Positions 16,206 to 37,098 of a stretch of DNA of 64,000 nt are shown here, one piece after another. Location: positions 1,674,001-1,738,000 of the forward strand of contig NZ_CP009501.1 in the NCBI RefSeq assembly GCF_000969885.1. Direction: 5' to 3'. The notes beneath the pieces were generated by a model. That model made no database searches and had not been told where the DNA came from. It was given only the letters and a program-made list of their open reading frames with translations. Numbering within the stretch: position 1 is the stretch's first letter; the number at the start of each line of letters is the position of its first letter. The stretch is from Methanosarcina thermophila TM-1 (GTDB taxonomy: Archaea > Halobacteriota > Methanosarcinia > Methanosarcinales > Methanosarcinaceae). The translations under genes and the position numbers were made by a program.

Positions 16206-16392
16206 AATAGAAAAGAAGAATGCGACCCAGAATAAGAATAGATTAATACAAATAAGATATATATATTTGCATAAATAATTATTGACGTTTTAAGGATTTC
16301 AGAAGAACTACCTTTTTTGCCCTCTGATAAAAGTGAAGAAGGGGACCTCCTGCCTTAGAGTTAAGGAAACTTATACAGGAATTTAATTAACT

Positions 16393-30830: not shown

Positions 30831-32084
30831 TCAGTCCATGCTTTCTACTTCAGCAAAAGTTGTAGTCTGATTTACATCACAGGTGGCGCTCTTGGTCACG
30901 ATTGAAATCGTGTCTCCAATGCTCCTAATTACAGCCACCTTTCCAGTTACGTTATACGTGTCCTCATCCATACCTTCGTCATCGGATATATCAGTAATAT
31001 CCCCAACTATAGTCTTGTTTCCATCCATTGTGGTAAGGTCAGCCAGATGCTTGTCTATTTTCTCGGCCGTTCCGATCATGTAATCTACATTGCTAATTAC
31101 AGCCATCTTTCCAACAAGATTACACTCCACGGGTTGGTTGCCTGTATCTTCAAACATTCCGGTCATATTACTCATTATTTCGGACATCTCATCGATGTCA
31201 TCGATGTCTTTAATCACAATTATCTGTCTGGTCATATCACCTGTTACATTTCCGGTCATACTTCCAGCCATAAGTAAAGTCATGTTGCCAATGCTTTCGG
31301 TTGTGCTGCCCATATCATCGGTCAGGTTGACCGTGATGGTTCCAGTCATATCTCCGATCATGACTACAGTCGTATCATTCATGGCTTCAATCATGTCTTC
31401 AATCATTTCGTCCATGTCTTCAGTCATGTTGTCGGTCATGTTGTCGGTCATATTACCGATCATATCGTCAGTAATGTAATCGGTCATATTGTCGGTCATA
31501 TTGTCGGTCATATTGTCGGTCATGTTGTCGGTCATGTTGTCGGTCATGTTATCCATGCCAGTCATGATTTCTGTCCTTCCGAAGATGACTACGCTTCCGG
31601 GCATATCATCCATTCTTCCGACCACAACCGCTTTTTCTGTCATGTTGCCAAAGTCTTTGATTAAAATTATCTTTCCAGTAACATCAAGCTCCATGCTTTG
31701 AGAGACATTATTCATGTCTTCAGTCATGTTGTCGGTCATATTACCGGTCATGTTGTCAGTCATGTTACCGATCATATTACCGGTCATGTTATCGGTCATA
31801 TTGTCGGTCATACTACCGGTCATGTTATCGGTCATGCTATCGGTCATGTTGTCGGTCATATTACCGATCATGTTATCGGTCACATTATCGGTCACGTTAA
31901 CCGCTTCTTCGACTATTACCACATTTCCGGTTACATTACACTCAACGGCTTTAGTAATATTTCCGGCTATGATTACATTTATTTCATCCATATCTTCTAT
32001 CGCGTTATCCTGTGCCTGCACGGGTGCTATAAAAAGGGCAAGACATACCGCTAGCATCAGAGGAAATATCAGCTTCAATTTCAT
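30831..32084 (-). CDS. Secreted Asn-Met-Thr repeat protein, no cupredoxin domain
   Basis: 417 residues. A signal peptide (about 1-24, ending VQAQ) precedes alternating blocks. One block type is long runs of DNMTDNMTGNMT. The other is a degenerate module of the type E-C-N-V-T-G-K-V-A-V-I-x-x-I-G-D, seen about five times, with the last near the C-terminus. There are dozens of NMT sequons. No known domain is visible. It shares signal-peptide style, GGGGGG ribosome site, promoter and repeat unit with the gene at 29262, so the two are paralogs or have exchanged repeats. Extracellular, probably glycosylated; function unknown. Confidence 0.7.
   Translation of the reverse strand: MKLKLIFPLMLAVCLALFIAPVQAQDNAIEDMDEINVIIAGNITKAVECNVTGNVVIVEEAVNVTDNVTDNMIGNMTDNMTDSMTDNMTGSMTDNMTDNMTGNMIGNMTDNMTGNMTDNMTEDMNNVSQSMELDVTGKIILIKDFGNMTEKAVVVGRMDDMPGSVVIFGRTEIMTGMDNMTDNMTDNMTDNMTDNMTDNMTDYITDDMIGNMTDNMTDNMTEDMDEMIEDMIEAMNDTTVVMIGDMTGTITVNLTDDMGSTTESIGNMTLLMAGSMTGNVTGDMTRQIIVIKDIDDIDEMSEIMSNMTGMFEDTGNQPVECNLVGKMAVISNVDYMIGTAEKIDKHLADLTTMDGNKTIVGDITDISDDEGMDEDTYNVTGKVAVIRSIGDTISIVTKSATCDVNQTTTFAEVESMD
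31420..31890 (-). repeat. 12-bp coding tandem repeats (Asp-Asn-Met-Thr)
   Basis: The plus-strand unit TTGTCGGTCATG and near variants recur in two clusters (about 31424-31552 and 31721-31890), each unit encoding four residues. Antisense frames through it look open only because the period is a multiple of three. Confidence 0.85.
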
Positions 32085-33309: not shown

Positions 33310-33516
33310 ATAAGGATGTAAAGAAGTGCTGTGTATTTTTTCATGCATCTTTTAGATATTAAAGGTTTCGGTGAAAGGACGAAACGGCAAGGATAGCTGT
33401 TTTATTGGCAAAAGAGGAAAAACTCTATTTCTGAAAATAGAGGGTGCAAAGCATAAAGACCTGAGGGTGGAATAATATAAGAGAAAAATTTCAAAGCGTT
33501 TTTCGGGGAGAGGGCA

Positions 33517-35265
33517 ATGGCTCGGTTTATAGAGCTTGCAGAGCTTTTTGAAGAACTTGAAAAGATAACATCTCATAAAGAGATCGTCAGGAAGATTGCA
33601 AACTTTTACTAGGAATTGGAAGGAAAGGAAGTAAAGGACAGTGCATACCTTTTTCTCGGAAGCATAGGACCTGCGTTTGAAAAGACGACACTGGGAGTAG
33701 GGGATAAGATTGCTTTAAAAGCAATTGCATCTGCATACAGAGTTTCAGAAGAGGAGGTGAAAAAAAGATATTCAACTACAGGGGATCTTGGGGATGTGGC
33801 GTTTGAGTTAAGTAGGGGAGAAGGAAAGTCGCTTACAATTGATGAAGTATTCGGAAAGCTCAGGGAAATAAAGGAAACCTCAGGAAAAGGAAGTCAGGAA
33901 GAAAAAGTCAGGCTGCTTTCCAGTATCCTGCAACGAGCCAGCCCGGAAGAAGGGAAATATATAGTCAGGATTGTGCTGGGGAAGCTCAGGCTGGGTTTTG
34001 GGGATCAGTTTTTGCTTGAAGCACTTTCTCTTGCTTTTACAGGAGATAAAAAATATACCGCTAAGATCAAGGAGAGCTACAATGTCTGCACCGACATTGG
34101 AGAGCTTGCAGAATCCCTTTCAGAGCATGGCACCAGAGCTCTTGGACGCTTTTCCATAAAACTGGGACGACCTGTCAGGTCAATGCTTGCCCAGCGAGTA
34201 GAATCTTTTGAAGAGATAGAAAAAAGGATTCCCGGAGAAAAGGCAGTTGAAGAAAAGTATGATGGGGAAAGAGTTCAGATCCATAAAAACGGAAACGAGA
34301 TCAAAGCCTTTTCTCGAAGGCTCGAGGATATAACTGCCCAATATCCTGATCTTGTGGAAGCAGTCAGGAGAGACATTAACGCAGAGAAAATCGTGCTTGA
34401 TGGGGAAATCATTGCATATGTTGAAGGCAGTAAAGCCGATGACTCTACCCAGGAATTTTATTCATTCCAGAGACTGATGCAGAGGCGCAGGAAATATGAG
34501 GTTCAAAAATATGCTGAAATCTTCCCTGTTGCAGTATTCTTTTTCGATATCCTGTACCTAGAAGGAAAGTCCCTCCTGAAAGAACCTTACCCCAGGAGAA
34601 GAGCTCTTCTCGAGGAAAATGTAAAGCAATCCGAAGCTCTTCGCATGGCTGGAAGAATTGTTACGGACAATCTTGAGGAGATAGAGGATTTTTTCAACAA
34701 GACTCTAGAAAAGAAGCTTGAAGGAATTATAATCAAATCCATGAGCAGCAATGCGGTTTACGAAGCCGGAAAAAGGAGCTGGTTCTGGCTCAAGTGGAAA
34801 GAAGAATATGCCGAAGGAATGCGAGAGACCTTTGACCTTGTAATTGTAGGTAAATATTACGGGCGAGGAAAGAGGAAAGGCTCATTTGGAGCTCTCCTCT
34901 GCGCTATTCTCAACGAAGAAGAGCAGCGTTTTGAGACTTTTACGAAAGTAGGTACAGGATTTACAGAAAGGGACGCAAAGGAAATCGACAGCCTGCTTTC
35001 AGAGCATATAGTGAATGAAATCCCTAAAAACGTACTCATAAAAAGTAGGATGATGCCCGATATTTTAGTAGAGCCCACTGTGGTTATCGAGGTTCTTGGT
35101 GCGGAAATCACGAAAAGTCCTGGTCATACCGCAGGACAGGGAGAAGGAGATACAGGGCTTGCCCTGCGCTTTCCTCGATTTTTGCGTATAAGATATGATA
35201 AAGGACCTGCAGATGTCAATACAGTTAAAGAAATCATGAATTTGAAGGAAGGAATAGGCGTTTAA
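33517..35265 (+). CDS. lig: ATP-dependent DNA ligase with an in-frame amber codon at residue 32
   Basis: Seals DNA nicks using ATP. From the ATG at 33517 (GGGGAG 6 bases upstream) the frame reads an N-terminal ligase helix (ARFIELAELFEELEKI) to ANFY, then TAG at 33610-33612, then ELEGKEVKDSAYLFLGS with no further interruption. Motif I is EEKYDGER (catalytic Lys about residue 247 counting the amber as 32), followed by DGEIIAY, EGIIIKS, WFWLKWK and the C-terminal OB fold. Archaeal ligases have sequence on both sides of this point. Pyrrolysine insertion at TAG is therefore plausible. Otherwise translation would start at a poorly supported TTG at 33616 and lose 33 residues. Followed 78 bases later by polX. 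Confidence 0.9.
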
Positions 35266-35343: not shown

Positions 35344-37098
35344 TTGAGAAATCGCGAAGTAGCTGAGTTACTTTATGAAGCTGCTGATATTCTTGAGTAT
35401 CAGCAGGTTGAGTGGAAACCGCGAGCTTATCGGAGAGCCGCCCAGATGATAGAAAACCTCGGGGAAGACATAGAGAATATTTATGCCAGAGAAGGAAAAG
35501 CCGGCTTGATCAAAATTCCAGGTGTTGGGAAGTCCATTGCTGATCATATTGCTGAGTATCTCGAAACAGGCAAAGTTGAAAAATTTGAGAAACTCAAAGG
35601 GAAAGCCCCTTCAGGTGCTGCGGAACTCATGGAAATCCGCGGGCTTGGCGCAAAAAAAATGAAAAAGCTTGCCGACACCCTGGGGATAAGGACGCTCTCA
35701 GATCTTAAAAACGCGATCGCTGCCCACAGGCTCAGGAGGCTCGAAGGCTTCGGAGAAAAAACTGAGGAAAATCTGGCAAAAGCAATTGAGCAGTATGAGA
35801 AAAGTCATTCCCGAATAGCTCTCGGGAAAGCGCTTCCAATCGCAGACGAGATTATATTCACTTTAAAAGCCAGGTGTAAGGATACAACCTCTAAAGTTGA
35901 TCTTTCAAAGATAATCTACACCGGCTCACTTCGCAGGTTAAAAGAGACGATCGGTGATATTGACATCCTGGCAGAAGCTGAAAAAGGAGAAGCTTTAAAG
36001 GTAATGAATTGTTTTGTCTCCCTTCCTGATGTTGATCAGGTTATCTTAAAAGGTAGCACAAAAAGCAGCGTGATCCTGAAAGAAGGAACTGCTATTGACC
36101 TGAGAGTAGTTCCACCTGAAAGCTATGGGGCAGCTCTTCAGTATTTCACAGGCTCAAAGGAACACAACATAGAACTCAGGAACATTGCCATAAAGAAGGG
36201 TTACAAACTTTCGGAGTACGGGCTGTATATAAAGGAGTCCGGAAAACAGATTGCAGGCAGTAGTGAAGAAGAGATTTATAAGGCACTTGGTCTTGCCTAC
36301 ATCCCGCCCGAACTTCGTGAAAACAGGGGAGAGATTAAAGCCGCTGCAAAAAATGCCCTCCCAAAACTGATAGAACAAAGCGATCTCAGGGGAGATCTCC
36401 ATGTGCACACAAACTACAGCGAAGGAAAGGATAGCCTTAAAACCATGATTGAAAGAGCAGAAGCTCTTGGCTATGAATATATCGCAATAACTGACCATTC
36501 CCGCTCCCAGAAGATTGCCAGGGGTCTGGAAATTGAGAAATTAAAAGCTCAGTGGAAAGAGATAGATAAACTTTCAAAGTGCTTCCGGATAAAAATTCTT
36601 AAAGGCTCCGAGGTTGACATCCTGAAAGATGGGACCCTTGATTTCCCGGATGAAATTCTCAAAGAACTCGATATTGTCTTAGGATCCATACACTCCGGTT
36701 TTGCCTTGCCTGAGAAAGAAATGACCGAAAGAATTGTCACGGCTCTGGAGAACAGGTATCTTGATATCCTTGCCCACCCTTCAGGCAGGCTGCTTGGGAA
36801 AAGGGAGCCTTATGCCGTTAATTATGAAAGGGTTTTTGAGGCTGCGGCTGCAAACGGAAAATTGATCGAGATCAACAGCCAGCCTTCAAGGCTTGACCTC
36901 AACGACGAACTCATCCTGCGGGCAAAAACCTTTGGCATTAAATTTTGCATCTCCACTGACAGCCATTCCGCTGCCGACCTTACCTTCATGCGATACGGGG
37001 TAGGACAGGCACGGCGCGGCTGGCTAGAAAAAGAAGATGTGGTAAACACTTACCCCTACACCAGGCTTAAAGAAGTATTAAAGAAACTCAAAGAATAA
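35344..37098 (+). CDS. polX: DNA polymerase X family protein with PHP phosphoesterase domain (PolX)
   Basis: 584 residues, TTG start with GGGGG upstream. Domains: N-terminal 8-kDa-like region with two helix-hairpin-helix motifs (IPGVGKSIADHI, IRGLGAKKMKKLA; 58-111). The palm has metal aspartates in GDIDIL (D205, D207) and IDLRV (D252). The C-terminal PHP domain begins with DLHVHTNYSEG (351-361) and retains HSGF, HPSGR and STDSH metal ligands. PolX enzymes fill short gaps in base excision repair and the PHP part is a 3'-5' exonuclease. It lies directly behind the DNA ligase, so a repair operon is likely. Confidence 0.94.
   Translation: MRNREVAELLYEAADILEYQQVEWKPRAYRRAAQMIENLGEDIENIYAREGKAGLIKIPGVGKSIADHIAEYLETGKVEKFEKLKGKAPSGAAELMEIRGLGAKKMKKLADTLGIRTLSDLKNAIAAHRLRRLEGFGEKTEENLAKAIEQYEKSHSRIALGKALPIADEIIFTLKARCKDTTSKVDLSKIIYTGSLRRLKETIGDIDILAEAEKGEALKVMNCFVSLPDVDQVILKGSTKSSVILKEGTAIDLRVVPPESYGAALQYFTGSKEHNIELRNIAIKKGYKLSEYGLYIKESGKQIAGSSEEEIYKALGLAYIPPELRENRGEIKAAAKNALPKLIEQSDLRGDLHVHTNYSEGKDSLKTMIERAEALGYEYIAITDHSRSQKIARGLEIEKLKAQWKEIDKLSKCFRIKILKGSEVDILKDGTLDFPDEILKELDIVLGSIHSGFALPEKEMTERIVTALENRYLDILAHPSGRLLGKREPYAVNYERVFEAAAANGKLIEINSQPSRLDLNDELILRAKTFGIKFCISTDSHSAADLTFMRYGVGQARRGWLEKEDVVNTYPYTRLKEVLKKLKE

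Follow-up and report, generated by a model that had tools for sequence, protein, structure and literature searches.

The set of proteins known to contain pyrrolysine (Pyl) is small. A 2021 review (PMC8211752) names no members other than some transposases and Thg1 in addition to the methylamine methyltransferases. In Methanosarcina, the TAG codons of MtmB, MtbB, and MttB are read as Pyl and decoded by pylTS, and the Pyl residue lies in the active site of these enzymes (PMC8211752). A DNA ligase gene of Methanosarcina thermophila TM-1 with an in-frame TAG would share this decoding; its TAG, unlike theirs, lies at a variable position and is distant from the adenylation motif along the sequence. 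According to PMC6471195, which cites Heinemann 2009, Thg1, the tRNA-His guanylyltransferase of M. acetivorans, is made as a single protein that contains Pyl. Like the ligase, it is an ordinary enzyme rather than a methylamine methyltransferase, with an in-frame TAG where its relatives have none, and in both proteins Pyl is argued to be tolerated, although the ligase case spans many more species. Thg1 differs in that the shortened frame was found only in G001 (putative M. acetivorans), with 144 amino acids against about 245-285 in the other intact copies, whereas the ligase TAG is common to ten genomes; Pyl in the ligase is a prediction. Other amber-containing genes of Methanosarcina, namely transposases and a TetR-family regulator, likewise have a TAG outside methylotrophy and occur in few species, but in the available text of the reports describing them they are mobile or two-species cases for which no selection analysis is given (PMC2933860, PMC1914089).

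The ligase gene lies on the plus strand of the window, a stretch of 64,000 nucleotides from the single-contig source genome (3,127,379 bases; G000). The frame opens with ATG at 33517, six bases downstream of a Shine-Dalgarno-like GGGGAG (33505-33510), and a similar motif holds the equal place both in the other TAG carriers and in the orthologs with a sense codon, which begin at the equivalent ATG. These signals, and the single TAG at 33610 that interrupts an otherwise intact ligase, are as the original prediction had described them. Its statement that 551 codons follow the TAG was right about the open frame but counted one codon too many, as 31 sense codons (33517-33609) precede the TAG (codon 32, 33610-33612, the candidate Pyl codon), 550 follow it, and the 551st is the TAA stop (35263-35265). 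Read through, the gene (33517-35265) encodes 582 residues. Single TAG codons between two open stretches occur also at 16387 (245 and 41 codons) and 29496 (161 and 75 codons) on the plus strand, and most such segments within the window probably end at true stops. On the minus strand, a secreted-looking protein of 417 residues (30831-32084) is made up mostly of N-M-T-D/G repeats.

The read-through protein has the N-terminal, adenylation, and C-terminal domains of an ATP-dependent DNA ligase (PF04675, PF01068, and PF04679), all above the Pfam cut-off, and it matches TIGR00574 with an E-value of 1e-144. Archaeal ligases in the PDB match over the whole length (E down to 1.7e-128). The ligases of S. 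solfataricus (2hiv) and P. furiosus (2cfm) resemble it as three-domain enzymes throughout their length, whereas neither has a TAG residue at the site, which in P. furiosus is occupied by Lys. Alignments with both start at residue 3-4, and the Pfam score of the N-terminal domain is 149.3 bits with codons 1-31 over 123.7 bits without them (a gain of 25.6 bits). Hence, residues 1-31 belong to the protein. Motif I (K-x-D-G-x-R) is present as EKYDGER, and its Lys247 (34255-34257), which we take from established ligase knowledge to be the expected adenylation site, is invariant in the ortholog alignment.

Residue 32 is the last residue of a predicted helix (helix 2, residues 20-32) in the DNA-binding domain, and the orthologs have K, R, Q, T, E, S, G, or L at this position. 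The full-length structure model was poor (mean pLDDT 51), and only about residues 1-210 were used; the block holding the helix has pLDDT above 80, and the model of the DNA-binding domain superposes on known ligases at Z 21-22. That position 32 is variable suggests an exposed helix end. The TAG arose where helix 2 ends, at this variable site, so Pyl, which is derived from lysine, is probably tolerated there rather than catalytic.

A six-frame search for the orthologous ligase in 31 Methanosarcina genomes found a full-length or near full-length copy in 16, and ten of these have TAG at exactly codon 32 (G000, G003, G004, G005, G006, G013, G019, G022, G027, and G029). M. spelaei MC-15 and Methanosarcina sp. 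MSH10X1 are among the carriers. The six others have the sense codons TTA, GGG, AGC, GAG, AGG, and AAG, and orthologs of other genera have AGA, ACC, CAA, AGG, AAA, and AAG. The comparison of residue 32 among Methanosarcina ligases that had been proposed for the locus thus divides ten to six. A sequencing error or a fresh nonsense mutation is ruled out by the presence of TAG at the equal codon in ten genomes; the sense codon (AAG or CAG) that resequencing might have revealed at 33610 is likewise a TAG in the nine relatives. All carriers fall in one clade with 100% bootstrap support, for which the simplest reading is a single old origin of the TAG in the ancestor of the clade. The remaining 581 codons are open without further lesion in eight of the ten carriers, and the TAG-bearing ligase of the sister genome G006 has a C-terminal frameshift. 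In G003, a second TAG stands at codon 139, where other Methanosarcina have CAG or CAA, and the gene has no other lesions. An independent in-frame TAG was observed in G061, from another genus of the same family, where ATG TAG replaces ATG GAG at codon 2; this frame stops about 28 codons early and the gene may be damaged.

Selection on the ligase was estimated in the nine intact carriers with a GY codon model fitted in Python. Omega was 0.27 for codons 1-31 (p 2e-4 against omega 1), 0.174 for codons 33-582 (p 7e-135), and 0.147 for codons 33-222 (p 1e-56). Purifying selection before and after the TAG implies that, from its origin onward, both parts have been made as protein. It is highly improbable, therefore, that the TAG is a real stop and that a dead ligase is decaying behind it. 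There are points that agree with such decay, as many relatives have lost the ligase or keep a decayed copy, the decayed copies of G030, G014, G015, and G016 retain the TAG, as does that of G002, in which a single base immediately ahead of the TAG is deleted, and the carriers are slightly more relaxed than the sense species (0.174 vs 0.127, p 0.0014). Against it stand the 550 codons that have stayed open beyond the TAG in eight carriers and the omega of about 0.17 across the clade, which is well below 1 on each terminal branch, including those of the source genome (0.17, p 8e-61) and of G003 (0.18, despite its second TAG).

A shortened ligase made from a start behind the TAG, by internal initiation or by re-initiation, is also very unlikely, though somewhat less so than a dead gene. 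The original prediction was correct that no listed start other than TTG at 33616-33618 (codon 34) follows the TAG closely in the source genome, and this codon, two codons past the TAG, recurs in five other carriers, while GTG94 occurs in four. TTG34 is missing from four of the ten carriers, which makes initiation at 33616 unlikely, and no start codon is conserved between codons 33 and 222 among the ten; G003 has no start-like codon after the TAG up to codon 110. The first start-like codon common to all carriers, ATG223 (34183-34185), lies too far along the frame to include the DNA-binding domain, although selection acts there as well. Any such start would lose helices 1-2, which are under selection and match the Pfam N-terminal domain. 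Reading of UAG by an ordinary near-cognate tRNA (e.g. Gln or Lys) instead of tRNA-Pyl would fit the Gln, Lys, Glu, or Arg at codon 32 in many orthologs, but is scarcely probable in a genome that has a dedicated UAG-decoding tRNA with its synthetase and an mtmB with a Pyl-type TAG. Slippage or frameshifting on a T-run was rejected, as several carriers including the source genome (TTTTAC TAG) lack a long T-run and the frame is equal on both sides.

The source genome was found to hold a complete pylTSBCD set, with tRNA-Pyl (anticodon CTA), PylS, PylB, PylC, and PylD in one cluster, and its MtmB has the expected single TAG. Among the ten carriers, pylS above the cut-off together with pylT was found in eight and pylS in a ninth, and the assembly of the tenth is 75% complete. 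The ligase-bearing G018, G020, and G028, whose ligases do not have this TAG, yielded no full pyl genes, and G022, an incomplete assembly in which the TAG is present, yielded neither pylS nor pylT; most of these assemblies are incomplete, and no link between the TAG and pyl gene content is drawn from them. In G018, a 92%-complete genome in which searches recovered no pylS and no pylT, the ligase is a pseudogene whose codon 32 reads TAT, and its sister remnant in G012 is likewise decayed. The pylB frame of the source genome (L068:11566-12681) has a TAG near its end, and the match to the PylB family extends to residue 347 of 370. This UAG probably acts as a stop, a role that has been reported in other species. 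At the ligase TAG, no Rfam PYLIS match was found and no downstream RNA structure was seen (fold z = 0.42). PYLIS is absent in some known cases and is not needed for Pyl insertion, according to the available text of PMC2933860.

Taken with the conserved TAG, the selection on both sides of it, and the lack of a conserved alternative start, the complete pyl machinery makes Pyl decoding the simplest route to the ligase. The original prediction, a ligase made by readthrough of the TAG as Pyl, finds support in the same conserved codon, two-sided selection, and pyl genes. It is very probable that tRNA-Pyl decodes UAG32, giving both a full-length ligase and a terminated peptide of 31 residues; the residue inserted would be Pyl, as judged from the sequence. 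Translation would start at ATG 33517, and Pyl-tRNA(CUA) and the release factor would compete at codon 32, where some ribosomes would terminate and release the 31-residue peptide and others would insert Pyl and complete the 582-residue enzyme. A guide to the efficiency of readthrough may be the UAG reporter in M. acetivorans, for which the available text of PMC2933860 gives 20-30% full-length protein. The product is predicted, with the same high confidence and jointly with the reading of UAG32 as Pyl, to be a functional accessory ATP-dependent DNA ligase.

The accessory role is suggested by the genomic context. The source genome encodes a second, TAG-free ligase of 573 amino acids (37% identical, G000:C1:1179769-1181439), so the TAG-bearing ligase is dispensable. 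The supply of the TAG-bearing enzyme may depend on Pyl-tRNA, as the original prediction proposed, but with the second enzyme at hand, cell viability probably does not. The TAG-bearing ligase has been lost or has decayed repeatedly in Methanosarcina, including four or five cases in the TAG clade. Directly 3' of it lies a gene for DNA polymerase X (PolX, Pol-beta-like with PHP; 35344-37098, plus strand; NF006375, E 4e-159), and the two genes adjoin at every ligase locus examined, also in other genera. The second ligase, the repeated losses, and the conserved neighbour together fit an accessory repair role alongside PolX, in which the ligase might seal nicks after gap filling by the polymerase. 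PolX also stays in place, with its frame open, at loci whose ligase has decayed (L060-L064).

Whether the TAG has drifted or is put to use can be approached through the variability of its position. In the six sense species, where each has a different residue at this site, codon 32 ranks fourth in rate among 578 codons. If it had evolved as freely in the carriers, nine unchanged TAGs would have a probability of 0.026 at omega 1, 0.006 at omega 1.45, and 0.0002 at omega 2.5. However, 17 codons, including codon 32 itself, show four or more residues across the sense species, and three of these are unchanged in the carriers. Selection for retention of the TAG is thus suggestive under the codon model but not significant against this empirical set of variable codons. 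For Thg1, the title of the 2009 paper by Heinemann reportedly proposes neutral evolution. It is rather improbable that selection maintains the ligase TAG as a translational valve, with the supply of Pyl-tRNA setting the amount of repair ligase. If it were true, the supply of Pyl-tRNA would track methylamine metabolism, and the carbon source would control repair via the genetic code.

The ligase is not named in the available main text of earlier surveys of M. acetivorans, M. mazei, and M. barkeri, and a literature search, in which recent and subscription-only work on archaeal UAG decoding was covered in part, returned no paper naming it. Earlier surveys could easily have missed it, since G001 (putative M. 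acetivorans) has GGG at codon 32 and G010 (putative M. mazei) lacks the ligase gene. In addition, standard gene calling would truncate the TAG-bearing ligase in many Methanosarcina genomes. The ligase is a strong candidate for a Pyl protein and for an addition to the small set outside methylamine metabolism. A repair ligase whose amber codon has been retained across ten species would bring both an enzyme of DNA repair and a case of long standing into the group of Pyl proteins, and would offer a natural test of the spread of Pyl through the proteome by drift against its use in regulation.
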